A DNA stretch of 34,218 bases from an uncultured Bacilli bacterium (lineage in GTDB: Bacteria; Bacillota_I; Bacilli_A; RF39; UBA660), in contig CANPZX010000008.1 of NCBI GenBank assembly GCA_947589195.1, positions 1-34,218 on the forward strand, in the 5' to 3' direction. The number at the start of each line of letters is the position of its first letter. The stretch's first letter is position 1. The notes under the pieces were generated by a model. That model made no database searches. It saw nothing but the letters and a program-made list of their open reading frames with translations, and was not told where the DNA came from. A program made the translations under genes and the position numbers. Below are positions 11,328 to 34,218 of the stretch, one piece after another.

Positions 11328-11346
11328 TAGACAATAGGTGAGAATA

Positions 11347-12276
11347 ATGGATAAGATATTTAAAAATATTGATGAACAGTTGGAGATTCTAAAAAAGAAA
11401 GGTTTAATAATTGAAGATGATTTATATACTAAGGAAGTCCTTTTAAGAGAAAATTATTTTTTTATTAATGGTTATCGGTCTTTATTTATAAAATCAGCTT
11501 ATGATAAAACTTTTATTCCGGGGGCTACCTTTAGAGAATTATATGCTGTTTTTAATTTTGATAGACAGGTTCGTAATATTTTATTTAAAAATTTACTTAT
11601 TATTGAAAATAATATTAAAAGTGTAATATCTTATCAATTATCTAAAACTTATGGAATTAGAGAAAACGATTATTTGAATCCCAAAAATTTTACTAGGGCT
11701 CCAGAAAGAATGCGGCAAATTAATGATTTGATTAAAAAAATGAAAAGACAAATTAGAAATAATGCTGGTGGTCATACAGCGACCGCTCATTATGTAGCTA
11801 ATTATGGATATATTCCTTTTTGGATTGCAGTGAAAGTTTTATCTTTTGGGATTGTAAGTGAATTATATTTAATTTTAAAAACAGTTGATCAAGCGGAAGT
11901 AGCTAAGGTATTTAATGTAAATCCTAATGATCTAGCTTTATATTTACCAATTTTGTCTAATTATCGTAATTTATGTGCCCATGAAGAAATTTTATATGAC
12001 TACCATGTACAGCGAAGAATTAATGATACAAGATTTCATGAAAAATTAGGAATTCCGAAAATGAATGGGGAATATATTTATGGAAAAGATGATTTGTTTG
12101 CTTTAACTATTATGTTAAAACAATTACTTAGAAAAGATGATTTTAAATTGATGTTTGAAGAGTTAAACTATGAAATAAGTTTATTAAGTGGAAGACTAAA
12201 ATCAATTAGTATTGGTAAAGTATTAGATAAAATGGGTTTTCCAGCTAATTATTTAGATTTAGAAAGGATTGATTGA
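11347..12276 (+). CDS. Abi_2 family protein (AbiD/AbiF-like, HEPN)
   Basis: I take ATG 11347 (309 residues), five nt after AGGTGA. The GTG at 11338 lies inside that ribosome site. It matches the Abi_2 family: the N-terminal DEQLEILKKKGLIIEDD block, ENYFFINGYR near residue 36, FNFDRQVRNILFKNLL and a conserved NYRNLCAHEEILYDY. The last contains the HEPN RNase motif R-x4-H (about residues 206-211). Such proteins abort phage infection in lactococci and pair with a non-coding RNA or act alone. The stop codon is one base from the start of the HtrA protease gene, an unusual partnership. Confidence 0.85.
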   Translation: MDKIFKNIDEQLEILKKKGLIIEDDLYTKEVLLRENYFFINGYRSLFIKSAYDKTFIPGATFRELYAVFNFDRQVRNILFKNLLIIENNIKSVISYQLSKTYGIRENDYLNPKNFTRAPERMRQINDLIKKMKRQIRNNAGGHTATAHYVANYGYIPFWIAVKVLSFGIVSELYLILKTVDQAEVAKVFNVNPNDLALYLPILSNYRNLCAHEEILYDYHVQRRINDTRFHEKLGIPKMNGEYIYGKDDLFALTIMLKQLLRKDDFKLMFEELNYEISLLSGRLKSISIGKVLDKMGFPANYLDLERID

Positions 12277-13460: not shown

Positions 13461-14387
13461 ATGGAACTTGGAAAATTAAAAAAAGTAGAGAATTTACGGG
13501 AAATTTGGGAAAATGAAGAACGTTGTTTTACACCATGGTTAGCTCAAGAAGAAAATATGAAATTATTAAGTGAAACAATAGGTATCCCAATCAAAGTAAT
13601 GACAAATGAAGCAAAAGTGGGAAAGTATGAACTAGATATTTATGGTATTAATGAGGATACAGGAGATAATATTATTATTGAAAATCAAATTGAAGCATCT
13701 GATCATCCTCATTTAGGAAAACTTCTTTTATATGGAGCAGGATATGATGCTAAAACGTTAATTTGGATCGTAAAAGAAGCAACAGATGAACATAAGCAAG
13801 CTGTTGAATGGTTAAATGAACATTCTGATGAAAGTATTAATATTTTCTTGATTAAAATTGAATTATTTAAAATTGATGATTCTTTACCAGCTCCGCATTT
13901 TGAGGTTATTGCCGAACCAAATAATTGGACAAAAATTTTAAGAAATAGTGGTAAAAATATTGAATTATCTGGAGCTAAGTTGAAAGATTTAAATTTTTGG
14001 CAAGGTTTTGTGGATTATTGTAAAAGAAATAGGACAACTTTTTCCATGCGAAAAGCACTTCCTCAACAATGGTATGATTTATCTTTAGGCTCAAATGGAA
14101 ATCTTATTCGTTTAACTGTAAGTCAACACGGAGATTTAAATTGTTCTTTATATATCAATAATAATAAAGAATTATTTAATGAGTTATATGCTAATAAAGA
14201 TAATATTGAGACCTTATTGGGATATTCGGTTATTTGGGATTATAAAGAAAATCGAGGAGCCAGTAGTGTAGATTTAAAATGTAATTTTAATGTCGATTGG
14301 GATAGTGAAAATTATGATGAAAGTTATGAATGGCTGATGAAAACAGCAGAAAATTTTAAAAAAGTATTTAAAAAATTTTTAAAATAG
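13461..14387 (+). CDS. DUF4268 protein with N-terminal PD-(D/E)XK-like nuclease domain
   Basis: The 308-residue protein has a nuclease-like N-terminal half. YELDIYGIN around Asp59 and IIIENQIEASDHPHLGK (Glu74-x-Gln76, Lys87) match a D-ExQ variant of the PD-(D/E)XK site. IWIVKEATDEHKQAVEWLN is a conserved helix. Residues ~165-308 form the DUF4268 domain (FWQGFVDYC...LYINNNKELFNELY...WLMKTAENFKKVF). Relatives are found singly near restriction and defence genes, and their substrate is unknown. It has its own promoter and terminator, so it is a one-gene unit at the left edge of the defence island. Confidence 0.75.
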   Translation: MELGKLKKVENLREIWENEERCFTPWLAQEENMKLLSETIGIPIKVMTNEAKVGKYELDIYGINEDTGDNIIIENQIEASDHPHLGKLLLYGAGYDAKTLIWIVKEATDEHKQAVEWLNEHSDESINIFLIKIELFKIDDSLPAPHFEVIAEPNNWTKILRNSGKNIELSGAKLKDLNFWQGFVDYCKRNRTTFSMRKALPQQWYDLSLGSNGNLIRLTVSQHGDLNCSLYINNNKELFNELYANKDNIETLLGYSVIWDYKENRGASSVDLKCNFNVDWDSENYDESYEWLMKTAENFKKVFKKFLK

Positions 14388-14424: not shown

Positions 14425-14475
14425 TGATGTAAGTGACATCAATATATCTATGTAAAGAAATATAAATGGTTTACA
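14425..14475 (+). promoter_or_regulatory. Composite palindromic operator upstream of the SNF2 gene
   Basis: TGATGTAAGTGACATCA (14425-14441) is a near-perfect palindrome. After a 9-nt spacer follows TGTAAA-N13-TTTACA (14451-14475), which ends 12 nt before the -35 box. The same two-part arrangement, with the same 9-nt spacer, occurs at 28703-28750 before the Wadjet operon. Confidence 0.7.
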
Positions 14476-14487
14476 CGATAAAAATAA

Positions 14488-14515
14488 TTGCAAAATACCA
14501 AATAATGGTTATAAT
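14488..14515 (+). promoter_or_regulatory. Promoter of the SWIM-SNF2 gene
   Basis: TTGCAA (14488-14493), 16 bp, then TATAAT (14510-14515). The leader to ATG 14539 is about 18 nt. Confidence 0.65.
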
Positions 14516-14538
14516 AACTTTATATGTGGGGTGACGTA

Positions 14539-17500
14539 ATGCAAGAATCTTTAATAAATCAAATTGCTGGTTATATTTATGATTTTCATATCGCGGAAGG
14601 AAAAAGAATACCGAAAGATAACATTCAAGAAGTAGCTTCAAAGGAAGAAAATGGCAACATTTATAAAATGTTTGAAGTGATGGACCAATTAAATCAAAAA
14701 GAAGCTGTCAAATTGACATTAAAAAATAATCGTTTAGTGGCTTTTGGTTGTACTTGTAGTTATTTTCAAGCTATTCATTCATGTTCACATATTCCGGCAG
14801 TATTAGTCAATAAAGGTAATGAACTTATTAAATTAGATGAAAAAGAAGTACGGAAAATATCTAGGAAAATTTTAAATAATTTTGTACTTAATAATTCACC
14901 TAAAATAAAAGTTAAATTAAATGTGGAATATGAAATGGAATTTTTCAGTAATTATTATGAAAAAGAATTAAGATTGAAAATAAAACTGGGAACTACAAAA
15001 TTATATAATTTAGGGCAAAGGTTTCGTAATTTTAATACTACTTATATGAAACAAAATGGTAAAGTTTATTTTGGAAAAGAATTTGAATATGATCCCCAAA
15101 TACATTATTTTGATTCTGAAGATGAAAAAATATTTGATTATTTAGTTAATTTTGATGAATTAAGTTTTTATAACCAAGATATAAACAATATTTTAAAGTT
15201 ATTTACACATAAGAATTTTTATGTTGTAGGTACCGGTTTAATTAATGGAATTATTGAGGGATTACCATTTGAGGCAAATTTAACCAAAGAAAATAATGAA
15301 TATATTTTAAAGTTTGATTTTGATAAAGATATCCAAATTTTAACTTATAATTTAAGATATGTTTTATATAATAATAAAATTTATCATTTAAATAATGAAT
15401 ATGCTAGGTTAGTAAAGATGCTTGATGATATGAAAATGAATACTATTGTTTTTAATAAAAAAGAACTAGATAATTTTAGTAAAGGGCTTTTACCAGTTAT
15501 TAAAAACGATTTAATTTTAGATAATAATATTAAAGAAATTAGTATTTTAAATACATCTAAAGTAAAGTTATATTTTGATTTAACTCAAAGTTTTATTAGT
15601 TGTAAAATTAAATTATTTTATAGTAAAGAAATTGATTATTTTGATACAGCTAAAGATATAGTAAGAGACGTAGATTTTGAAAATATGATTATTGAGGATT
15701 TAAAACAAAATAATTTTAAAATTTTGGAAAATAAAATTATTATTGAGGATTTAGATGATATGGTTGAATTTATGGAAAATGGATTAGCTGTACTAGCCGA
15801 GAAATATCAAGTATATACATCAGAAAAATTAAAGAGCGCCGATATTATTAAAAAACCAAAAGTTAAAAATAATTTTTCTATTGGAACCGATAATATAATG
15901 AGATATGATTTTGAAATTGATAATGTAGATAGTTCGGAAATAAATGATTTATTAAATTCTTTAAGAAAAAAGAAAAAGTATCATCGGTTAAAAAATGGAA
16001 ATATTGTATCTTTAGAAAATGATTCTTTAGAGGATTTAAATAACTTGGTAGACGATCTGAATATTAATATGAAAGAAAGTTCGGGACAAATTCCTAAGTA
16101 CCAAGCAATATATCTTGATTATTTAAAAAAAGAAAAGTATCCTTTTATTGAAACAAATAATTTGTTTGTCGATTTTATTAATAATTTTAAAAAATATCAA
16201 AATGTTGATTTAAAAATAGATGATGATATTTTAAGGGATTATCAAAAAGATGGAGTTAAATGGTTATATACTATCTATAAATGTAATTTGGGAGGAATAC
16301 TGGCCGATGAAATGGGTCTTGGAAAGACTATTCAAACTATTTACTTTATAAAAGAGTTATTGAAAGAAAATAAAGATAATAAATTTTTGATAGTATGCCC
16401 AACAGCTTTAGTTTATAACTGGGTAAGAGAATTTGAAACATTTGGTAAAAATATAAATTTAAAAGTGATTCATGGTTATAATCGGGATAAGAAGTTTAAG
16501 GATAAAAGTAGTAGTGTATATATCACTTCTTATGGAACTTTAAGAGAAGATATTCTTAAATATGAAAATTTTAATTTTAAAGCCATGATTATCGATGAAG
16601 CTCAAAATATAAAAAATCCTAATGCGTTGCTTACTAAGTCAGTTAAAGAAATAAAAGCCGAGGTGAAAATTGCTCTTACGGGAACTCCACTTGAAAACTC
16701 AATTGTGGAATTATGGAGTATTTTTGATTTTATTATGCCTGGTTTTTTAGGGAGTCTAAATAAATTTAATGAGAAATATCATTTTAAAGATGAAGATAGT
16801 GAATATCAAGAAAAAATGACTAAGTTAAAAAGGGTAATTTCGCCATTTATTATGCGCCGGAAAAAACAAGATGTGGCTCAAGAGTTGCCAGAGAAAATAG
16901 AAAATAATATTTATATTGATTTAAGTGAAAAACAAAAGGTTTTATATAGTGAAGAAGTAAAGAAAGTCCAAGAAGAAGTTGAAGATATGATTGGAAATAA
17001 TGGCTTTAATGCTTCTCGCGCTAAGATATTGCAACTTTTAACCCGCTTACGGCAATTATGTATTGATCCAAGACTTGTTTTTGAAAACTATACGGGAGAA
17101 AGTACGAAAATTATTACCTTAATTGAAATGCTAAAGGAAATTATAAGTAATGGTCATAAAATTTTGTTATTTACGAGTTTTAAGCAAGCTTTAGATATTG
17201 TTAAAGATGAGTTAGATAAACAACAAATTTCTTATTATGTAATTGATGGAAGTGTCAGTGCTAAAACAAGAATGGAGTTAGTTGATAAGTTTAATAAAGA
17301 TGAAACTAATGTATTTCTAATTACAATTAAAAGTGGCGGTACTGGTTTAAATCTAACTAGTGCTGATGTGGTTATTCACTTGGATTTATGGTGGAATCCT
17401 CAAGTAGAAAATCAAGCAACGGATAGAACACATCGATTAGGTCAAACTAAAAATGTCGAGGTTATTAAGTTAATAACTAAGGGGACTATTGAAGAAAGAA

Positions 17501-17628
17501 TTTTGGAATTACAAAATAAAAAGCGTAAATTAAGTAATGATTTAATTGAAAAAAATGGTGTTGATAACTTTGAAGTATCTTCTTTAACTGAAAAAGATAT
17601 TAAAAAATTATTAGAAATAGATGGCTAG
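14539..17628 (+). CDS. SWIM-domain SNF2/Rad54-type DNA-dependent ATPase
   Basis: ATG 14539 (1029 residues) follows GGGGTGA. An earlier in-frame ATG at 14524 lies before that site. An N-terminal SWIM zinc finger CTCSYFQAIHSCSH sits at about residues 70-83. Residues ~130-560 form the bacterial SNF2-associated region. The motor follows: DEMGLGKT near 589-596, the DEAQ box IIDEAQ near 683, LTGTPLENS near 712, and motifs V-VI GGTGLNLTSADVV...ATDRTHRLGQ near 932-968. These enzymes translocate on duplex DNA and remodel protein-DNA complexes. SWIM-SNF2 proteins are widespread in Firmicutes without a settled role. The shared operator with Wadjet suggests a defence or DNA-surveillance function here. 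Confidence 0.9.
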   Translation: MQESLINQIAGYIYDFHIAEGKRIPKDNIQEVASKEENGNIYKMFEVMDQLNQKEAVKLTLKNNRLVAFGCTCSYFQAIHSCSHIPAVLVNKGNELIKLDEKEVRKISRKILNNFVLNNSPKIKVKLNVEYEMEFFSNYYEKELRLKIKLGTTKLYNLGQRFRNFNTTYMKQNGKVYFGKEFEYDPQIHYFDSEDEKIFDYLVNFDELSFYNQDINNILKLFTHKNFYVVGTGLINGIIEGLPFEANLTKENNEYILKFDFDKDIQILTYNLRYVLYNNKIYHLNNEYARLVKMLDDMKMNTIVFNKKELDNFSKGLLPVIKNDLILDNNIKEISILNTSKVKLYFDLTQSFISCKIKLFYSKEIDYFDTAKDIVRDVDFENMIIEDLKQNNFKILENKIIIEDLDDMVEFMENGLAVLAEKYQVYTSEKLKSADIIKKPKVKNNFSIGTDNIMRYDFEIDNVDSSEINDLLNSLRKKKKYHRLKNGNIVSLENDSLEDLNNLVDDLNINMKESSGQIPKYQAIYLDYLKKEKYPFIETNNLFVDFINNFKKYQNVDLKIDDDILRDYQKDGVKWLYTIYKCNLGGILADEMGLGKTIQTIYFIKELLKENKDNKFLIVCPTALVYNWVREFETFGKNINLKVIHGYNRDKKFKDKSSSVYITSYGTLREDILKYENFNFKAMIIDEAQNIKNPNALLTKSVKEIKAEVKIALTGTPLENSIVELWSIFDFIMPGFLGSLNKFNEKYHFKDEDSEYQEKMTKLKRVISPFIMRRKKQDVAQELPEKIENNIYIDLSEKQKVLYSEEVKKVQEEVEDMIGNNGFNASRAKILQLLTRLRQLCIDPRLVFENYTGESTKIITLIEMLKEIISNGHKILLFTSFKQALDIVKDELDKQQISYYVIDGSVSAKTRMELVDKFNKDETNVFLITIKSGGTGLNLTSADVVIHLDLWWNPQVENQATDRTHRLGQTKNVEVIKLITKGTIEERILELQNKKRKLSNDLIEKNGVDNFEVSSLTEKDIKKLLEIDG

Positions 17629-17704: not shown

Positions 17705-17731
17705 TAAAAAGATTAGTTGTTTTAACTAATC
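17705..17731 (-). terminator. Terminator after the Panacea-associated toxin gene
   Basis: The inverted repeat GATTAGTT/AACTAATC (17711-17718 and 17724-17731) is followed on the minus strand by a T run. It overlaps the stop codon. Confidence 0.75.
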
Positions 17732-18153
17732 TCATTTAATTCCAATATTTCATATTTTGTCATATGCACAATTCTTTCTTCTTGAATTCTATTATTACTT
17801 TGATATTCTTTATAATCATTTAACAATTCAGTTAATTTTGTTTTTGATAATAGATCCTTGGTTTTTCTATATTTTTTCAAATCAGCAAAATTTTCTATTG
17901 TTAATTTTGTATTTAATTGGGCATAACTATCTTCATATATTACTGTTTCTTGAGGCTCTTTTGAATTAATGTAATGGTTGTATGGATAATATAAGTTTTG
18001 TAATTTACCAGCAGTTTTGTCAATTGCTATAATTTCAATATATTCATCATTAATTTCAGCAATTAACATAGGGTGTTTAATATCAGATACTTTGTCTATT
18101 TGATATCTAACTTTTAGCCAAAGTATTTGACCAACTTTTAAATTTTCAATCAT
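17722..18153 (-). CDS. Toxin partner of a Panacea antitoxin (PemK/MazF-like SH3 barrel)
   Basis: The 143-residue protein starts GQILWLKVRYQIDKVSDIKHPMLIAEIND. This is the beta-barrel opening typical of PemK/MazF-like RNases (strand, basic loop, H-P, strand). IEIIAIDKTAG and the later DSYAQLNTKLTIENF follow, and the C-terminus is helical. Its ATG overlaps the antitoxin stop by 4 nt (18150-18153), the classic toxin-antitoxin arrangement with the antitoxin gene first. The proposed action is RNA cleavage or another translation block. PanA antitoxins pair with many unrelated toxins, so only the partnership is firm. Confidence 0.6.
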   Translation of the reverse strand: MIENLKVGQILWLKVRYQIDKVSDIKHPMLIAEINDEYIEIIAIDKTAGKLQNLYYPYNHYINSKEPQETVIYEDSYAQLNTKLTIENFADLKKYRKTKDLLSKTKLTELLNDYKEYQSNNRIQEERIVHMTKYEILELNEIS

Positions 18154-18632
18154 ATTTTTAATGCGGCAATTAATCCTTTATATCTTTTCTTATATTCAGC
18201 TATATTTTTTTCCAAATTCATTACCGGAGCATTATATGTATCCTTACTTAAAATTTGCCATTCTGGATCCTCATGAGTTATTTCTATTAATTCTTCGAAT
18301 GTTGCATTTTCTAAAGATAAATATATTTTATCCAAAAAATTTTTTTCTACTTCATTAATGTTTTTATTATCATAATGCCCTACCAATCTACCATATGAAT
18401 TCATTATTGATTCAACAACAGGACCATTATCATAGGCTACAAAATCATCAGAAAATAATTTTTTATTATATTTAGCTAAATGAACAACTTGAGCTAAAAA
18501 TAAATATTTATTTATTCTGGCATTACCTTCATAGAATTTTCTACCATTATATGAAACTACATTATGATTAAAAAGTTTTCTTTCATGATCTTTGGAAAGA
18601 AAATATTCAGCAACTTGTTTTGCAGTTAACAT
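18150..18632 (-). CDS. Panacea-domain (DUF4065, SocA/PanA) antitoxin
   Basis: This 160-residue protein has the Panacea signature: LTAKQVAEYFLSK, NKYLFLAQVVHLAKYNKKLFSDDFVAYDNGPVVESI (residues ~41-76) and an acidic central helix. The C-terminal ITHEDPEWQIL motif (~115-125) is typical of SocA/GepA-like proteins. The domain neutralises diverse toxins by direct binding. AGGAGA lies upstream of the ATG. It is the first gene of a two-gene unit divergent from the SAP-domain gene. Confidence 0.85.
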   Translation of the reverse strand: MLTAKQVAEYFLSKDHERKLFNHNVVSYNGRKFYEGNARINKYLFLAQVVHLAKYNKKLFSDDFVAYDNGPVVESIMNSYGRLVGHYDNKNINEVEKNFLDKIYLSLENATFEELIEITHEDPEWQILSKDTYNAPVMNLEKNIAEYKKRYKGLIAALKI

Positions 18633-20586: not shown

Positions 20587-21831
20587 TTACGCTTTTAATT
20601 TAATAAAATTTAAAATATTTTCTTGATTATTTTCTTGATAACCGGCTTTCTTAGTTTGACAAATTATATTTTTTATTTCTGTTAATTCGGGAGTTTTGAT
20701 ATTATTTAAAATATTTAAGCGTTTTTGACTAATATTACTATTTGCTGAAGTTGCCTTATAATCAGCAAGACTATAGCAAAATAAATTTAGTTGCTCTGGA
20801 TATTTTTCTTTGAATTTACTAGCAATAAGTAATCCTTCGGGATCAAAGTCGCCATTGTAATATAAAGTATTACCTGATTCAAGAAGTTTTTCTAATAGTA
20901 GATAGACACTAGAATTAGAAAAACCATTGGCAATAACAATTGTAGCTTTAATGTTGTCATTAATAATTTTAGTTAAAATTGAAGGATTTTCTAAAATAAA
21001 GACTTTTTTATTGAAACTATCAAATTTTTCAGTAGTTAAAATATTTTGAATATTTAAAATTAAACTTTCTTTGTTTTTGGCAAAATCATTAATATATGAT
21101 TTATTGGATATAAGGTTATAAGTAAGAACAAAATTAGAGTAATTGTCAATTACAATATTATTTTCTTTAAGTAAGTTTATTTTTTCTTCTCGGGTAGTAG
21201 GAAATTCTTTATTTTTTAAGTTGGCTAAATAGTAAAGAAAAAGAATACATTCTTTATTATCAATATCTAAATAATGGGGATTAGCAGTATATGTGGAGGA
21301 GAAAATTGGTAATAAAGTTGATTCGCTCGGTAAATTATCAATTAATAATATTAAATTTTTTAATTCTTTTTGAAGATCATTTTTATTTTTTAAATATCTT
21401 TTATGAATGATATTATAAGGACTTTTTCGGGATTCTATTGTTTTTTTTAACCAGTCTGTTCCTAAAGAGTTTTTATTTGTTAAAATAGATTTATAGTAAT
21501 TTTGTTCAACAAGTTGTTTTTGATAGTTAATTTCTTTATTAGTAATTAAGTTAGTATTTAAGTATTCACTGATAAAAATTGTTATGTCAAAATCAGTAAA
21601 TTTGGAATTTTGCATAATGGTTAAAAATTTTTTTAAAGAAATAGTAAGGTCATCATGAATATTTATTTTATGTCCTAAAAATTTAGACAAAGTTTCAGAT
21701 TCTTCGATAGTTAAGTCAGAAAGTTTGATTGTACCAGAAAAGGTTCCTAAAGATTGGTATTTTTGATAAATAGCAAGAATTAAACGATTAAATCCTGGTT
21801 TTTCTAAAAAATATTTAGTATAATCATGCAT
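20587..21831 (-). CDS. jetD: Wadjet nuclease subunit JetD
   Basis: The 414-residue protein has an N-terminal helical arm and a C-terminal TOPRIM-like nuclease domain. VFILENPSIL (about residues 276-285) supplies the glutamate. TLYYNGDFDPEGLLIA (about 315-330) supplies the aspartates. JetD relates to topoisomerase VI A/Spo11 and cuts closed circular DNA once the Wadjet SMC complex has fully extruded it. All predicted metal ligands are present. Its ATG overlaps the jetC stop by 8 nt. It is the last gene of the operon and ends at a bidirectional terminator. Confidence 0.9.
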   Translation of the reverse strand: MHDYTKYFLEKPGFNRLILAIYQKYQSLGTFSGTIKLSDLTIEESETLSKFLGHKINIHDDLTISLKKFLTIMQNSKFTDFDITIFISEYLNTNLITNKEINYQKQLVEQNYYKSILTNKNSLGTDWLKKTIESRKSPYNIIHKRYLKNKNDLQKELKNLILLIDNLPSESTLLPIFSSTYTANPHYLDIDNKECILFLYYLANLKNKEFPTTREEKINLLKENNIVIDNYSNFVLTYNLISNKSYINDFAKNKESLILNIQNILTTEKFDSFNKKVFILENPSILTKIINDNIKATIVIANGFSNSSVYLLLEKLLESGNTLYYNGDFDPEGLLIASKFKEKYPEQLNLFCYSLADYKATSANSNISQKRLNILNNIKTPELTEIKNIICQTKKAGYQENNQENILNFIKLKA

Positions 21832-24800
21832 TTTCTATTTCCTCATTATATTCTTTACGATTATTAATTATTTCTTTTATTTTACCATTCCACCGATATC
21901 TTTCGACTGATACGGTTTGTGAATTTTGAGGTCTAATTAATTCACAAATTGATAAATCACTAATAGTATCGTAATCACCCCATAGAACTTGAGAGTTAAT
22001 TACGAAATCTAAATTTAAATTATTTAGAATTCCAAACATTTCGCGAATATTATCCTCATCAACACCGGCAAAAGCTTCATCTAAAGCAATTAATCTTAAA
22101 GCATTATTTCGAGCCATATTAAGTTTAGCATAGACACTAGCAAAAAGGGGAATATACATACTCTTGGCTCTTTCACCACCACTGAATCTAGCAAAGGTTT
22201 TATCAGTAAGTTCTTTAAAATCTTCACCTTTACGTTCATATAATAATTGAAAACTAAACCAAGTACGATAATCAAGAATTTCTTCCATAATTTTAGCAAA
22301 TGGGGTATAAGAATCTTCATATAGTTCTTCCGCTTTTTTAATTTTACTCCGGAAATGATTAGTTAATTTTTCTTTATCTTCGTCTTTTAACATATCAGGT
22401 GATATTTTTAAAATTCTTACTAGTTCTTTAGTATCAATTTCGCCTTCGTTATCGGCAGAAATACTTTTCCAAATTAGTTTAAAACGTAGGGCACTATTTT
22501 CTTGCATTGTAGCCATTATTTTATTGATTTTTTCAATCCATTCTCGAGATGAATTAATGCGATTTCTAATTTTTTCACCAACAGTATTAAGTAAAATTTC
22601 TTCAAATAAACGACGATCTTGAGTACTGATTAAATCTTTATTTTCAGCGATATCAGCTTCTAATTTATGAAATAACTCAATAATATTTAATTTTATACCT
22701 TGATACATAGCACTTACATCATTGCGAATATTTTCGGCATAGAGGTTCTTTAATTCTTCATTTGTTGTTTCGTAATCATTAAAGATATAGAAAGATTTTA
22801 AAGAATATTCATTTAATTCTAAAGAGTATTTATTAAAGCTAGAGATAAAATTTTCCTTGGCTATATTTAAGTTATATTCCTTTTGTTCTTTGTTATCATT
22901 AAGTATTTTTTTAATTGTCGAAGCAATATCTATTACTTCATCTTGATAAACATATCCTAATTTATATTCTCGAAGAAAGATTTCATAGTAAACATCTAGT
23001 TTTTGTTGTTTAATAGTTTTTTCTTCATTAAGATTTTTGATTTCAGTTTCTTTATATGATATATCATGAGATAAACCTGAAGTTTCTTTTATTAATTTTT
23101 CTTTTTCTTGATTTAAATTAGTTAGATTTTGTTCAAGTTTAAGAAGTTGTTCTTTTTGATTTTGATACTCAGAGGTTTCTAATAAAGCATTTATGTTTTT
23201 TTCATTAGCTAGATTAATATTTAATTCTTTAGTCCTTTCATTTTTATCAGCTTCTAAATAAGCAATATTATTAATAATGTCAGCTAAGGTATTTTGATAA
23301 TTTATTAAAAATTCATTTTTATGCCAATAAGTATTTTCGTTTAATTTTAAATTATCGAGTTTTTCTTTTAAGGAAGCAAGTAGTGAGAAAACTTCTTGAT
23401 AAGCATTTAAATTAAGAGGAATTTCTAAACCTTGTTTGCCTTTTAGAATATGATCTTTTATTTCTTTTAATTTATTATTAGCTAAAGTAAGTTTGGCTTC
23501 AATTTCTTTTTGATGTTGATCATTCCAATTTATATTTTGCGAGATATCGGCAATGGTATTTAAAATATCATTTATTAATTTATTATTGGGAAAATTGTTA
23601 ATTTCAGAGTTAATTATTTCTGCTTTATGCTTATTGTTTTCAATAATGTTTTCTAAAGTAGATATTTCCTGTTTTAAAATTGTGATTTTTTCGTTTAATT
23701 TATTAAGTTCATTTTTCTTAAGTTCTAAACGTTTTAAAAAGCCAATAAATGTTTGTTTATAATTCTTATCAGCAATAGAGTTTAAAATACCTATTTTAGC
23801 TAAACCATTTTTATTGATGACGATTTCATCAGTATCATCAATACTTATAGATTCTAATATTTCTTTAATATAATTAGGATCTAATGTAGAGTTTTCTGGT
23901 AGTTTGATATCAAAATATGCAGTTAAATTATTTTTCTTTTTAGTTCCTTTAGTTAAATAAATAATTTCAGTATTTAAATTAGATATTTTAGGAATGTCAT
24001 TTTCTTTGATTATTTTAGCATTTAAGATATTTAGATCAAGTAAGGATGATTCAAGATTATTTTTGATATTTTCCGGAATGTTTGCTTTAAATTCAAGACA
24101 TTTATATAAAGGAAGGCTTTCAATATGATTAAGTTTTAAAAGTTCCTCAGAATTGTTATTTAATAGGGGAAGTTCAAAATCTTCTTTGTTTTCTAATTCT
24201 TGATATTCATTTTCGATAATTTTTAAATCTTCTTTTTTCGTATTAAGTTTAGTTTCTTGCTTTAAAATATCACTAATTAAGTTATTTTTAAGTTCCCAAG
24301 CATAATTTGTATATAATTCTTTTGCTAGATCATAATTTTCTTTAGAATAAAAATTTATTAATTCGAAAATTTTTTGCTTAATATCATCACTTATTTTTAA
24401 TTCAGCATTATTATTAATTTTGTTAATAAAATCTTCTTCCCAACTCATGATACTTTCTCTTAGATTTTGTTCAGTATTTTTTAAATTATTTTCTAATTCT
24501 TTATAAGAATTGATTAGTTTTTCTAGTTCAATATGGGAATTTTCGTTTTCTAAAAGAATCTTTTGTTCTTCTTCTAAGAGATTTTTAATTTTTGATACTT
24601 TATCTTTATAGAGTTTTAAAGAATCATTGATAGTTTCATAAAGATTAGGATTATTATCTTTTAAAATATTATCTAAAAAGATATTAAGTTCTTTAAAATA
24701 AGTATCGTTAGCTATTTCTTTTAAGTCAGTAATGTTTTCGGTAATTTCCTTTTTAATTTTATATATTTCATTTTCCGTTTCAGTTATGTTATTATTGGTC

Positions 24801-25903
24801 CTTATTTTAGTTTGTTCATTATTATCTATTTTAGTTTCTAGTTCAGCTAATTTAATTTTTAAAGTATTAATATTTTCTTTAATGGTATTTAATGATTCAA
24901 CTTTTTGTTTTAAATCACTATTGTCAAATTGTTTTTTGGTTTCTTCATTAATAGCAATTTCTTCTATTACTTTTTGATGACGATTTTCTTTTTGGGTATA
25001 CTCGTCTTTAAAGTTTTGAAGTTCTTGATTAGAAATATTGATTTTATTTATGTGAGCATTAAATTCATCACTTGCTTTTTTATAGTTTCTAGCTTTAGTT
25101 AAGAGATTTAGAGTGTTATAGTTATTATAAACTTTTAAAAAATCTTTTAAACATTTATGATTTTTTTCTAATTTTTCAATTTGTTCTTTAGTTTTGTTCA
25201 TTTGTTCAATAGCTTCGGATAAGGGACGTAAGTCATCTTCCGTAAGGGGTTGTAATACTTTGTTTAAAACATCAATTAAATTTGTTGGTTTATAATCTCT
25301 AGATAGTTTATTACTTCGTAGCTGTAAAAGTAGTTTTATAAACTCATCATAGGTATCTAAGTTAGGAAAGCCAAATAATAAATCATTTACCATCGCTTTG
25401 TAGTCTTTAGTATTATCCGTAAAATTATTGACAGGACCTAATCTTGATTTTAATTCATTTTTTGATAAAGGAATTTTATTAACTGGATCTTTATATAAAT
25501 AAAAATCTTTATTTATTCGTTTGCCATCTTTTAAGGCAAAACCCCATGATTCAACCGGTTTTCCTTTACGTCCACGAAAGCCTAGACCAATTGTTATATA
25601 TTTCTTTTCATTTTCTAAATAAGTTTCCATATAAAGATAAGATGTAGCTTCTTCTTTTTGTATATTTTCGGCATCTCCTAATATGTAATCTTCGATTTTT
25701 CTTTCTTTGGAACCAAAAGGATCTAAACGATCTGGACTTTTATTGCCATCTAAAATTAAGGGAATAAATGATTGCATGGTGACGGATTTACCACTGCCAT
25801 TCGCTCCTCGTAATATTAGTTTTCCACCATAAAAATCATATTCTTCTTCATCATATAACCAGAAATTCAATAATCCGATTTTATTTACTCTAAATCTATT
25901 CAT
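21824..25903 (-). CDS. jetC: Wadjet SMC-like ATPase JetC
   Basis: ATG 25903 (1359 residues) is preceded by GGAGGT at 8 nt spacing. A TTG at 25918 and an ATG at 25909 overlap that site. Walker A is GANGSGKS (33-40). Two very long coiled coils occupy about residues 240-1150, with a hinge-like globular part near 620-740. The ABC signature RFSGGERAKSM lies near 1238 and Walker B LIALDEAFAGVDED near 1274. It is the MukB-like motor that extrudes small circular DNA and recognises plasmids by topology. It overlaps jetB by 8 nt and jetD by 8 nt. Confidence 0.93.
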   Translation of the reverse strand: MNRFRVNKIGLLNFWLYDEEEYDFYGGKLILRGANGSGKSVTMQSFIPLILDGNKSPDRLDPFGSKERKIEDYILGDAENIQKEEATSYLYMETYLENEKKYITIGLGFRGRKGKPVESWGFALKDGKRINKDFYLYKDPVNKIPLSKNELKSRLGPVNNFTDNTKDYKAMVNDLLFGFPNLDTYDEFIKLLLQLRSNKLSRDYKPTNLIDVLNKVLQPLTEDDLRPLSEAIEQMNKTKEQIEKLEKNHKCLKDFLKVYNNYNTLNLLTKARNYKKASDEFNAHINKINISNQELQNFKDEYTQKENRHQKVIEEIAINEETKKQFDNSDLKQKVESLNTIKENINTLKIKLAELETKIDNNEQTKIRTNNNITETENEIYKIKKEITENITDLKEIANDTYFKELNIFLDNILKDNNPNLYETINDSLKLYKDKVSKIKNLLEEEQKILLENENSHIELEKLINSYKELENNLKNTEQNLRESIMSWEEDFINKINNNAELKISDDIKQKIFELINFYSKENYDLAKELYTNYAWELKNNLISDILKQETKLNTKKEDLKIIENEYQELENKEDFELPLLNNNSEELLKLNHIESLPLYKCLEFKANIPENIKNNLESSLLDLNILNAKIIKENDIPKISNLNTEIIYLTKGTKKKNNLTAYFDIKLPENSTLDPNYIKEILESISIDDTDEIVINKNGLAKIGILNSIADKNYKQTFIGFLKRLELKKNELNKLNEKITILKQEISTLENIIENNKHKAEIINSEINNFPNNKLINDILNTIADISQNINWNDQHQKEIEAKLTLANNKLKEIKDHILKGKQGLEIPLNLNAYQEVFSLLASLKEKLDNLKLNENTYWHKNEFLINYQNTLADIINNIAYLEADKNERTKELNINLANEKNINALLETSEYQNQKEQLLKLEQNLTNLNQEKEKLIKETSGLSHDISYKETEIKNLNEEKTIKQQKLDVYYEIFLREYKLGYVYQDEVIDIASTIKKILNDNKEQKEYNLNIAKENFISSFNKYSLELNEYSLKSFYIFNDYETTNEELKNLYAENIRNDVSAMYQGIKLNIIELFHKLEADIAENKDLISTQDRRLFEEILLNTVGEKIRNRINSSREWIEKINKIMATMQENSALRFKLIWKSISADNEGEIDTKELVRILKISPDMLKDEDKEKLTNHFRSKIKKAEELYEDSYTPFAKIMEEILDYRTWFSFQLLYERKGEDFKELTDKTFARFSGGERAKSMYIPLFASVYAKLNMARNNALRLIALDEAFAGVDEDNIREMFGILNNLNLDFVINSQVLWGDYDTISDLSICELIRPQNSQTVSVERYRWNGKIKEIINNRKEYNEEIENA

Positions 25904-27071
25904 TTTCATTACCTCCAAATAGTTCTAATTGTTTTTCATCATTTTCTGGAATGTATCCAGTTATTTTTCCAACCATCGGAAAAATTTCATAGCCTAATTC
26001 ATTTTCTCTTATGAAGTCATATTCACTCATATAGTTAATAACTGTAGTCGTAAAAACATCTAAGGTCATTTCTTTTAAATTTTTACTAAAATATTTTTCA
26101 TTTTTTTCTTTTGTTTCTTTGATTAAACGATTTAATTTTTCTTTGGTTAATAAAGCAACTTCATTTTGATTTAATTTTATTTCGTCGTTATTTATTTTTT
26201 CTAATAGTTCAGTATTTAAAAGTAAAACAATATCTGTTATAGCTTTATTATTAGGGAAATCAAATTTTTCTTTGGTATTATCAGCGTATAGTAATAAAGC
26301 CATGTTTTTGGTTATTTCTAATTCAGCATCAAGATATTTATCTAGTTCATTTTTTATTGAACTACGAAATTTTTTTAGATAGTCTAATTCAAATTCGGTT
26401 AAATCTTGAGAATAGGCCACCAAGGAATAAATAAGGTGACGGTATACCCGATATCTTCTTACATCACCAATATTTTCATTTTGATCATTAAATTCATCAT
26501 TAATAAAATCATTTATTGTATTAAATTCACTAAGATCATTTTTAAATTCTCGAACATAATAGTTAGATAAACCAGTTGTTTCGTATAATCCTTCAGCTTT
26601 TTTGTCTTCGGTAAAAGTGCTTATTTCTTCAACTACTTTTATTAACCCTTGTTCTTTTAGATGATTTAAGACATTTACTAGGCATTTACGATGTTTGGTA
26701 ATGTTCCAATCAGGAATAGTGTTTAATTCTAAAGTAATTGCAGTATTTCTTATATATTCAATTAAATTTGAAAGAATGAATTGTTCTAAACGGGGTTTAT
26801 CTTCTAAAAATAGTAAAACAATCATTAGTATGGAATATTCTAAGGGAGTAGTAAATTCGGTAATTCCCATGTAGCTTTTAGGAACACTAGGGACTTTTTC
26901 CAGTTTTATAATTCGATCATTTACGATAAGTTTGCTTCCTAATTTAGTATGAATAAAATCTTTATAATAATCAAGATTATTTTTGATAGTGTAATAAAGA
27001 GATGGATTATCTTCTTTTATACACCAATAGTTATTAAGTAAATATTCTAATTCTTCAGTATGAATATCCAT
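25896..27071 (-). CDS. jetB: Wadjet KITE subunit JetB (DUF4194)
   Basis: The 391-residue protein has winged-helix content: LEYSILMIVLLFLEDKPR (~77-95), VLNHLKEQGLIKVVEE (~133-148), then RVYRHLIYSLVAYSQ (~206-220). Its C-terminal MSEYDFIRENELGYEIFPMVGKITGYIPE is typical of the MukE-like JetB family. It binds the kleisin JetA and the SMC. Its ATG overlaps the jetA stop by one base, which shows tight coupling. Length fits the family. Confidence 0.9.
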   Translation of the reverse strand: MDIHTEELEYLLNNYWCIKEDNPSLYYTIKNNLDYYKDFIHTKLGSKLIVNDRIIKLEKVPSVPKSYMGITEFTTPLEYSILMIVLLFLEDKPRLEQFILSNLIEYIRNTAITLELNTIPDWNITKHRKCLVNVLNHLKEQGLIKVVEEISTFTEDKKAEGLYETTGLSNYYVREFKNDLSEFNTINDFINDEFNDQNENIGDVRRYRVYRHLIYSLVAYSQDLTEFELDYLKKFRSSIKNELDKYLDAELEITKNMALLLYADNTKEKFDFPNNKAITDIVLLLNTELLEKINNDEIKLNQNEVALLTKEKLNRLIKETKEKNEKYFSKNLKEMTLDVFTTTVINYMSEYDFIRENELGYEIFPMVGKITGYIPENDEKQLELFGGNENE

Positions 27072-28534
27072 TAAATATCACCTTCAAATTTTATTTCGAC
27101 ACTATCCATGATAAATGTCCCATCTTCACTAGTTATAGTGCATTTTCCCGGCTTTTTTAAAATTGAGTACGATAAACCAAATTCCGTTTCTTTTTTGGCA
27201 CTTGAGGAAGAAAGAAGTTTAGTTATATAGCGTCTTTCGATTTTGCTTAAATTTACAGTATCAGTTAAAATTATTTTTTTATCTTTAATTAGCTTTTTTA
27301 AAAGTTCTTTGTTTTCGGCTTGAATTTTTCGATATTCTTCAAGAAGTCTTTTTTTCTCAGCTGATTTATCAGTGATAGGAACAATTTTTACTTTTTCTTT
27401 GCGTTCCCGAGTTCTTGATGATAAAACAATTTCAAGAGGAGGAATGTCATAAGAGTTTACTAATACATCAGTATTTAAATTGGAATTACCAACAAAATGT
27501 TTAACATTTGAAATTCCAAAGATAACGGAAGCATATTTGTGGGCTTCTTCAATATCAGTTATGTTATCAAATATTTTGCATAATTTTTTATAGTCTTCTC
27601 TTCGGCTGGTCATATTACCATGTAATTCGATTAAAGAGTTAGCGTATTTAGTTATGAGAACAATTATATTATCGGTAGTATCCATTAGTTTTTGCCCTTC
27701 GCTGATTTTACTTTCACTACCAGTAAACCATTTAAAAATGTTTAAGATTTTGCCATGGTTAATTTCTTTTAGATGAGAAAAGTCAAAATTTTGATTTAGC
27801 ATTGGATTTAGTTGGGTGTAATTGTTTATTTTAGTTAGAAAATTTTCAATTTTTTCGGGTGTTATTTTGGAAATACTATATTTTATTAAATGGATATTAG
27901 ATTGATATCCTTGAACAAATTCTTTTAAGTATTTAACAATTTCGGATTTAAATTGGAGAAATAATACACTTTGCATAAGTTCTTCAGATTTGGGTTCGTT
28001 AAATTTTTTTAAGAAGTCTTGATAGTTTTGATTTAACTTGGTAAAGTCGTCATTTAGATCATTCCATATTTCGTAAGCTTCTTCGATAGTTTTTTCTTCA
28101 ATATCGATAAGTTTAGTAATAGTTTGACGTAAGCGATCAAATAATTTAGGTTCTAGGGAAGCCGCTTTTACTTCCATATCTTCTAAAGAAATAGTTAACC
28201 TTTCTATTTCAGTTGCGTATTCGGTCATTTGATAACGAAATTTCTTGTTTTTAAATTCGTCGATTGAGGTAGCATTTTTCGTATCTTGCATGCGAGATAA
28301 ACTTAACCATTCAGTTAATTGTTCTAAATCACGTTCACAGTCGTCAATGGTGTAGTCATTAAATAAAGCATTTTCTTTAAGTTCATTATAGACGTCTTCT
28401 TTGTATAACCAATATTCTAATTTTTCATAATTGCGATAAAAAATACGCATGATTGGCCGATAACGCCATGAGTTTTCAGTACTTAAATATTTAGTTTCAT
28501 CAATTTGTTTAATTAATTTTTCATATACTTCCAT
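27071..28534 (-). CDS. jetA: Wadjet kleisin subunit JetA
   Basis: This is a 487-residue MukF-like protein and the first gene of the operon. The N-terminal winged-helix segment is YRPIMRIFYRNYEKLEYWLYKEDVY (~25-49). A helical middle (~80-330) includes the dimerisation region, and the C-terminal part is a lysine-rich helix followed by a small beta domain. The family is annotated as DUF5716/JetA. It bridges the two JetC heads and the JetB dimer. AAAGGGA precedes ATG 28534. The regulatory region of 268 nt upstream carries direct repeats and a composite operator. Confidence 0.9.
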   Translation of the reverse strand: MEVYEKLIKQIDETKYLSTENSWRYRPIMRIFYRNYEKLEYWLYKEDVYNELKENALFNDYTIDDCERDLEQLTEWLSLSRMQDTKNATSIDEFKNKKFRYQMTEYATEIERLTISLEDMEVKAASLEPKLFDRLRQTITKLIDIEEKTIEEAYEIWNDLNDDFTKLNQNYQDFLKKFNEPKSEELMQSVLFLQFKSEIVKYLKEFVQGYQSNIHLIKYSISKITPEKIENFLTKINNYTQLNPMLNQNFDFSHLKEINHGKILNIFKWFTGSESKISEGQKLMDTTDNIIVLITKYANSLIELHGNMTSRREDYKKLCKIFDNITDIEEAHKYASVIFGISNVKHFVGNSNLNTDVLVNSYDIPPLEIVLSSRTRERKEKVKIVPITDKSAEKKRLLEEYRKIQAENKELLKKLIKDKKIILTDTVNLSKIERRYITKLLSSSSAKKETEFGLSYSILKKPGKCTITSEDGTFIMDSVEIKFEGDI

Positions 28535-28589: not shown

Positions 28590-28632
28590 TATTTTATGAT
28601 GGATGAGAATTTTTATATTTTATGATGGATGA
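28590..28632. repeat. Two 17-bp direct repeats upstream of jetA
   Basis: TATTTTATGATGGATGA occurs at 28590-28606 and 28616-28632, a 26-bp period with similar flanking T runs. It lies 56-98 bp before the jetA start and so could be a regulator site or overlap the promoter. Confidence 0.65.
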
Positions 28633-28702
28633 AGATTTTTAAAAGATATGACCTAATTTTAATGGTATGTTTTTCAATGAAAATGCCCTATTGATAAATA
28701 TA

Positions 28703-28750
28703 TGATGTAATTAGCATCACATAGTTGATGTAAATATTAGAATGTTTACA
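28703..28750. promoter_or_regulatory. Composite palindromic operator upstream of the Wadjet operon
   Basis: TGATGTAATTAGCATCA (28703-28719), a 9-nt spacer, then TGTAAA-N10-TTTACA (28729-28750). The arms and the 9-nt spacer match the element at 14425-14475 before the SNF2 gene. ATGTAA half-sites recur within it. It lies between the terminator of the XRE gene and jetA. Confidence 0.7.
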
Positions 28751-28754
28751 TTAG

Positions 28755-28783
28755 AAAAAAAGCCTTTTGATAGGCTTAAATAA
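28755..28783 (-). terminator. Terminator of the XRE regulator gene
   Basis: Read on the minus strand, AAGCCT/AGGCTT forms a hairpin followed by seven T. This separates the regulator transcript from the Wadjet operon. Confidence 0.75.
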
Positions 28784-28802: not shown

Positions 28803-29336
28803 TTAACTTTGCTTTTTGGAGTTGACATTAATGTTAATGTCGGGGTATTTAGCTTTATCAAATTTTTCTAAATTTGGAGTTAATATGCTAGTAATTTCTT
28901 TTAAAATTATAATGACATCTTTTTTAGTAGTAGGTTTTTCGTATAAATCAGGATTTTCTAAGCGGTCAATTAAATTCATAATTATTTTTTGACATTCAGT
29001 ATCATTAGCTCTTCTTTTATTTATATCTTTTAAAACGGCAAAAAAGAATTTAGTAAAATTTTCAACTTGGTCATCATTTTGGTTAGAAGATGAATTAAGG
29101 TTAATATCTTCGTTATTATATCCGGCAAGGTTGGATAGATCTTTAAAATCTAAATTTAAGACTTTGGCAATTTTATTTAAAATTAAAACGTTTGGTTTTT
29201 GCCTTAATCCAGCTTCAATTCTTGAAATTTCTCCTGAATCAACATGAGCTAGTCTAGCTAGTTCTCTTTGAGAAATCTTTAATTTGGTCCGAGCTTCACT
29301 GATTTTTTGACCTAATAAATTTATATTTTTTCCCAC
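28803..29336 (-). CDS. XRE-family transcriptional regulator
   Basis: The preferred start is GTG 29336 (177 residues), seven nt after AGAGGG. The TTG at 29354 lies within the -10 box TATAAT (29359-29354 on the minus strand). The helix-turn-helix is in the first 60 residues: LGQKISEARTKLKISQRELARLAHVDSGEISRIEAGLRQKP, then LNKIAKVLNLDFKDL. The C-terminal half is a helical, acidic tail with no metalloprotease motif. Lying just upstream of jetA in the same direction, it is the best candidate to bind the shared operator, but this is unproven. Confidence 0.88.
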   Translation of the reverse strand: MGKNINLLGQKISEARTKLKISQRELARLAHVDSGEISRIEAGLRQKPNVLILNKIAKVLNLDFKDLSNLAGYNNEDINLNSSSNQNDDQVENFTKFFFAVLKDINKRRANDTECQKIIMNLIDRLENPDLYEKPTTKKDVIIILKEITSILTPNLEKFDKAKYPDININVNSKKQS

Positions 29337-29389: not shown

Positions 29390-29403
29390 GCAATAAATAT
29401 TGC
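29390..29403. promoter_or_regulatory. Perfect palindrome between the XRE gene and the Ham1 gene
   Basis: GCAATAAATATTGC is a 6+2+6 palindrome just upstream of the -35 region of the XRE gene and 84 bp before the divergent pyrophosphatase gene. It suits an autoregulatory operator. It could also be chance in AT-rich DNA. Confidence 0.4.
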
Positions 29404-29486
29404 TGACAAATTCATCATTTTAAGATTTTGTGAAATGAGAAAAATAATAATCCTTGTGTTATAATAATTTTAGGAGTGTGAAGTAA

Positions 29487-34102: not shown

Positions 34103-34218
34103 ATGAATGAAAGAGCAACAAAAAAGGTGATAATTGATGCCGGACATGGAGGTATCGGTTAAATCCAAAAATAGAAGAAATGACTATTTTGGTAAGTAAA
34201 TACAAGAGTTTAAGGTAC
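34103..34218 (+). pseudogene. Broken amidase gene start, runs off the window
   Basis: ATG 34103 behind AGGTGA encodes MNERATKKVIIDAGHGGIG and then TAA at 34160. VIIDAGHGG is the opening zinc motif of Amidase_3 proteins. The body does not follow. In another frame the sequence continues into NPKIEEMTILVSKYKSLRY, shared with the remnant at 7.9 kb. It looks like a truncated or rearranged gene. Confidence 0.5.
34177..34218 (+). repeat. 42-nt dispersed repeat, copy 2
   Basis: Matches 7880-7921 at 40 of 42 positions. It touches the right edge, so the full repeat length is unknown. Confidence 0.7.

Follow-up and report, generated by a model that had tools for sequence, protein, structure and literature searches.

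A putative XRE operator common to an SNF2-family translocase gene and the type II Wadjet operon of an uncultured gut-type bacterium

Local repressors of bacterial defense islands are already established, with RptR, BrxR, and CapW as examples. RptR represses a restriction/DarTG2 defense island of E. coli (PMC12255303). Like the XRE regulator considered here, it is a small regulator encoded with defense genes, is autoregulated, as the XRE is predicted to be, and has repeated palindromic promoter sites; it differs in being an unrelated 4-helix protein that recognizes a 6-bp palindrome and whose conservation goes along with type I RM systems (PMC12255303), whereas the present regulator is an HTH_3 protein with predicted 17-bp operators and Wadjet and SNF2 targets in an arrangement that is not conserved. 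BrxR and CapW, described as WYL-domain repressors of BREX and CBASS (PMC9122601, PMC9122589, PMC9122588), share with it the local transcriptional control of a defense island but have another fold and operator, and no WYL domain was found in the protein studied here, which matched HTH families only. No dedicated regulator of Wadjet was found in the open literature searched, which included a review (PMC10586767) and had subscription papers mostly outside its scope.

The locus lies in a stretch of 34,218 nucleotides (the window; contig C8, about 25.6% G+C) from the genome of an uncultured gut-type bacterium (assembly of 1.35 Mb in 90 contigs, 88.6% complete). Its Wadjet system, a plasmid-destroying defense of type II, is complete, with the JetA2–D2 subunits in order in a single operon and with strong PADLOC matches (Table 1). 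Described type II Wadjet systems (JetABCD) have the same four subunits in the same order, and the window copy differs from them by the predicted association with a dedicated regulator and operator. The SNF2 gene encodes a translocase of 1034 residues with PF00176 (E 1e-73) and PF08455 (SNF2_assoc, E 3e-59) domains; its real start is likely the ATG at 14539, after GGGGTGA. A CxC-x8-CxH motif (CTCSYFQAIHSCSH) is seen in the translation near the N-terminus, where Pfam SWIM was unreported at E 0.001. The protein scored below the NCBIfam equivalog cut-offs of the known SNF2 defense families (283 against 1500 bits for ZorD, 106 against 950 for DrmD, and 85 against 500 for DpdE), and the neighbors of SNF2 in the inspected relatives looked ordinary rather than defense-like, as judged by eye from translations. 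Two other features of the surroundings may be mentioned. A DUF4268 protein encoded directly upstream of the SNF2 element (13461–14387) matches the PADLOC phage-defense candidate PDC-S11 (E 2e-105). A SocA/Panacea antitoxin-like gene and its 143-aa partner (17722–18632) share 86–93% protein identity with a locus of another species of the same genus (L106) and are far closer to it than the surrounding genes are, so they are probably a recently moved toxin-antitoxin pair.

Table 1. Genes, promoter and terminator signals, and operator-like sites in the window.
Feature	Coordinates	Strand	Remarks
Operator palindrome TGATGTAAGTGACATCA before SNF2	14425..14441	+	Half-sites 1 and 2 of 4; matrix score 16.0, third in window
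Second inverted half-site pair, SNF2	14448..14478	+	CTATGTAAA 14448-14456 (+), TCGTGTAAA 14470-14478 (-); 2 mismatches each to TGATGTAAA
Predicted SNF2 promoter TTGCAA-N16-TATAAT	14488..14515	+	Consensus match only; 1 found vs 1.9 in shuffles
SNF2-family translocase gene (SNF2_assoc, SNF2, Helicase_C)	14524..17628	+	CxC...CxH motif near N-terminus
jetD, nuclease subunit of type II Wadjet (DUF3323/DUF2399)	20587..21831	-	PADLOC JetD2, E 2e-108
jetC, SMC subunit of type II Wadjet	21824..25918	-	PADLOC JetC2, E 0
Matrix match TGATGACGATTTCATCA inside jetC coding sequence	23815..23831	.	Matrix score 16.2
jetB, type II Wadjet (DUF2398)	25896..27071	-	
jetA, type II Wadjet (DUF2397)	27071..28534	-	PADLOC JetA2, E 2e-149
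Operator palindrome TGATGTAATTAGCATCA before jetA	28703..28719	+	Half-sites 1 and 2 of 4; matrix score 16.3, top in window
Second inverted half-site pair, jetA	28726..28753	+	TGATGTAAA 28726-28734 (+), exact; TAATGTAAA 28745-28753 (-)
Intrinsic terminator after xre	28760..28777	-	1 found vs 0.0 expected in shuffles
XRE (HTH_3) regulator gene xre, proposed binder	28803..29336	-	GTG start 29336; open frame reaching TTG 29354
Operator-like site TGATGAATTTGTCAGCA (xre strand) upstream of xre	29401..29417	-	Matrix score 15.2, fourth in window; intergenic

A composite element recurs upstream of SNF2 and of jetA. Before SNF2, the palindrome (14425–14441) is followed by N9, TGTAAA from 14451, N13, and TTTACA ending at 14475; before jetA, the palindrome (28703–28719) is followed by N9, TGTAAA from 28729, N10, and TTTACA ending at 28750. 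The two elements quoted in an earlier sequence-only reading match the window letter for letter (14425–14475 and 28703–28750), and its judgment that they are unlikely to recur by chance holds, as the composite TGATGT-N5-RCATCA-N7..11-TGTAAA has two occurrences in this genome, each within the window, and 385 other genomes of the family, including four from the same genus, have none. The parts are less rare: the assembly holds four copies of the strict 17-bp palindrome TGATGT-N5-RCATCA (two in the window and one each within ligA and a sigma-factor-like ORF) and seven of TGTAAA-N8..15-TTTACA by itself. The two copies lie 14 kb apart, and as the jet operon is on the minus strand, their orientations are opposite relative to their respective genes. 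The distance from the element to the start codon is about 170 bp for jetA vs about 65 bp for SNF2. The terminator (28777–28760) separates xre from the element, which thus belongs to the control region of the jet operon, where the position of the jetA promoter is uncertain. A tandem repeat of TATTTTATGATGGATGA (two copies about 26 bp apart, 28590–28640) also lies between the operator and jetA and is a possible leader or further regulatory element.

A half-site scan allowing up to two mismatches resolved each composite element into four half-sites of the type TGATGTAAA in the order > < > <, at offsets of 0, 8, 23, and 45 in the SNF2 copy and 0, 8, 23, and 42 in the jetA copy; the second pair of the jetA copy has 0 and 1 mismatches. 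The two-part description in the sequence-only reading was thus right in its letters, but its TGTAAA...TTTACA part is built from the half-site of the first palindrome. For this reason, that part is most simply read as a further pair, with wider spacing, that serves the same protein and at which XRE would also bind.

The window XRE has 23 relatives elsewhere in the family (about 41–52% identity, mostly over about 170 residues), and all of those inspected are located in mobile elements (loci L091–L095, L111–L133, and L140–L143). The same-genus relatives reside in mobilizable elements that carry a large serine recombinase, a Mob_Pre relaxase, and an HTH_36 gene, several of them positioned downstream of htrA. 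TGATGAGTTTTACATCA or a near variant is present upstream of almost all 23 relatives. The divergent promoter region of the xre genes in the same-genus elements holds TTGATGAGTTTTACATCAA, an operator that is found within 0–3 mismatches in nearly all 23. The recognition helix is nearly identical, DSGEISRIEAG in the window and DCAEVSRIEAG or DSAEVSRIEAG in the relatives. The window regulator thus shares with the mobile-element regulators full-length homology, the recognition helix, the operator core, and a TGATG-N7-CATCA-type site upstream of its own gene. This last site (TGATGAATTTGTCAGCA) was overlooked in the earlier inventory, which had the other two right; about 7 bp separate it from a weak downstream -35 (TTGCAT), which precedes a TATAAT, a promoter read by eye. 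Unlike its relatives, the window XRE lies outside any recognizable mobile element, and its predicted operators precede SNF2 and Wadjet, whereas those of the relatives precede a divergent mobile-element gene. A tblastn search of the window with the relatives' proteins found no recombinase, Mob, or HTH_36 gene near xre. The only sign of a resident element of the same type was a distant recombinase match (32%) on another contig, with no operators within 16 kb around it, a result that is not final at 88.6% completeness. A search for closer XRE relatives gave only 44–46% matches in four genomes among genomic contigs and none among viral contigs. At L147:2916-5260 (G197), an XRE relative with a single operator adjoins an apparent tyrosine integrase rather than a serine recombinase, so these repressors seem to be used by elements of more than one kind. 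At L108:340-1286, a more distant XRE gene has a similar divergent neighbor and a different upstream palindrome (TTAACATT...AATGTTAA), which suggests that the family changes its operator along with the recognition helix.

The main evidence for XRE as the binder is an operator matrix that is independent of the pattern noted earlier, as it was trained only on sites upstream of the 23 relatives in other genomes, with the window's own site excluded. Its four best matches in the window are, in order, those before jetA, inside jetC, before SNF2, and before xre (Table 1), with the fifth at 8.75; these scores are rough because the training sites are few and alike (eight distinct sequences). No site of at least 15.2 was found in 568 kb of other family DNA, and no comparable site at the control loci (six distant family XREs and one further XRE; best 13.2). 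The matrix was applied to the window and this 568-kb background, and sites were counted genome-wide by the IUPAC core pattern TGMTG-N7-CAKCA. There are 12 such sites in the genome (two per strand for the reversed-pattern control), and the only three that are intergenic stand before SNF2, jetA, and xre, compared with a mean of 0.001 in the intergenic DNA of the window after shuffling. The remaining nine lie inside ORFs, including jetC and, by translation, ligA, pcrA/uvrD-like, ftsH-like, and whiA-like genes. Matches inside jetC and unrelated coding genes indicate that coding sequence can give rise to the core motif, and the jetC-internal match, a comparable site to which is lacking from four other jet loci, is probably due to chance or accessory. 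Copies before unrelated genes, which would have spoken against a dedicated regulon, were absent from the genome-wide scan, all other matches being within coding sequence. The matrix, the helix, the intergenic sites, and the shared half-site together favor the earlier guess that the adjacent XRE protein binds the element, and they support a single regulon joining SNF2 and Wadjet. The element is very probably the binding site of the small XRE repressor encoded beside Wadjet.

The explanation that we prefer, with a probability of roughly 0.8, is that the element is an XRE operator through which XRE, most likely a mobile-element-type repressor, controls SNF2, jetABCD, and itself. The four half-sites of each SNF2 or jetA element would form two inverted pairs, probably filled by two XRE dimers. 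Three transcription units within a 15-kb stretch (the SNF2 gene, jetABCD, and xre) would then be kept low until released by some signal, under a regulator that may be descended from, or shared with, the regulators of mobile elements. Against this explanation stand the lack of the element before SNF2 and jetA in relatives and the modest identity, about 50%, of even the nearest XRE relatives.

Other readings of the repeated element were weighed. A chance likeness of AT-rich upstream regions would fit the low general similarity of the two 32-mers and the fact that the 17-bp pattern with three mismatches is not commoner in the window than in shuffles; it is barely credible, given that 385 other genomes lack the composite, that the matrix derived from other genomes agrees, and that shuffled DNA is nearly empty of sites. 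It is highly improbable that the copies, instead of being operators, are direct repeats around 14.3 kb that mark the ends or the attachment sites of a mobile island, and we reject this reading. They do have the same orientation and flank the stretch from SNF2 to jetA, in a hot spot of variable insertion that extends from htrA to the amidase gene. But they have no long identical core (22 of the first 32 bases are shared), the boundaries in relatives are others, no empty site joined at these elements was seen among the relatives inspected, and the actual mobile-element junction lies elsewhere, at the amidase start (34103–34153); the copies are better accounted for by their match to the family operator and by the existence of a third site, at xre. 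More weight, within the bounds of the unlikely, attaches to a two-factor arrangement with XRE on the 17-bp palindrome and a different factor on TGTAAA-N10/13-TTTACA, since the spacing of the second pair differs between the copies and is wider than in the 17-bp operator, and the operators of the mobile-element relatives are without such a wide pair. Both halves of the second pair nevertheless fit TGATGTAAA in either copy, so that a second independent palindrome factor is not needed, and four of the five other genomic TGTAAA-N-TTTACA sites are inside ORFs, which gives no indication of a separate regulon.

The direction of control is a further question, and we infer repression from the relatives. 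In three of them that were checked, a strong divergent TTGACA-N17 promoter has one operator immediately downstream of its -10, and the other operator covers the -35 of the xre promoter. This overlap with promoters is a repressor layout, by analogy with which repression by the window XRE is likely. The window elements themselves lie upstream of the predicted -35 boxes, and that of jetA about 170 bp from the start codon, positions that fit activation as well as repression. The SNF2 element ends 9–12 bp upstream of the predicted -35, like the sites of class I activators, and the xre site is likewise just upstream of its weak -35. Activation of SNF2 and jet by XRE is nonetheless the less probable mode, although the strongest of the alternatives considered here, as the window promoters are consensus predictions only, that of jetA is uncertain, and the relatives' operators argue for repression. 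As the window and mobilizable-element XREs share the helix and operator core, the regulon could also be a sensor or target of mobile DNA. Several operators on an incoming element could titrate the XRE of the host, which would turn on Wadjet and SNF2; alternatively, the element could bring an XRE of its own that silences them. This idea is speculative and on balance doubtful; if true, Wadjet would be tied into the control circuit of a type of element against which it may act.

The stretch from htrA to the amidase start (13387–34103) is a hot spot of variable insertion: in two relatives (G398 and G318; loci L093 and L096) no more than about 200 bp separate the two genes, and other relatives carry mobilizable elements there. 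The amidase gene starts at 34103 in the window and breaks off after the HGG codons (about 34153; 34103–34218), and the sequence beyond is 96% identical to the start of L102 and 93% to L090:2416-2470. Because serine-recombinase elements of relatives join the same amidase codons, the break looks like the attachment-site junction of an integrated element. An AbiD/Abi_2-like gene (11338–12276) adjoins htrA in nearly all same-genus loci inspected and thus behaves like part of the backbone, not like a defense gene that was acquired.

Conservation and co-occurrence were assessed in a sample of 243 genomes of the family, of which 12 have a jetA relative and about 60 have the long SNF2 type. The conservation in relatives expected by the sequence-only reading was not borne out: the element is upstream of none of 10 other jetA and none of 29 other SNF2 loci, the arrangement is therefore local, and the regulon looks local to this genome. 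The expected co-occurrence fared better. SNF2 is present in seven of 11 other Wadjet genomes vs 52 of 231 without Wadjet, which is above expectation (Fisher p = 0.005, size-matched p = 0.024, with genomes counted without regard to kinship). In the other genomes having both, SNF2 and Wadjet are on different contigs, so their physical linkage is not conserved. The two may act together, but common control of neighbors by a local XRE does not alone imply a common mechanism.

What appears to be new at this locus is the probable control of a type II Wadjet operon and a neighboring SNF2 gene by an XRE of a mobile-element family. How Wadjet is switched on has hardly been described, and the window XRE provides a candidate regulator with a defined operator and a small closed regulon. 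Since mobile elements use the family to which this regulator belongs, defense and mobile DNA may have one control signal in common. In addition, the shared regulon offers a concrete, if tentative, reason to ask whether this common SNF2 enzyme adds to plasmid defense.
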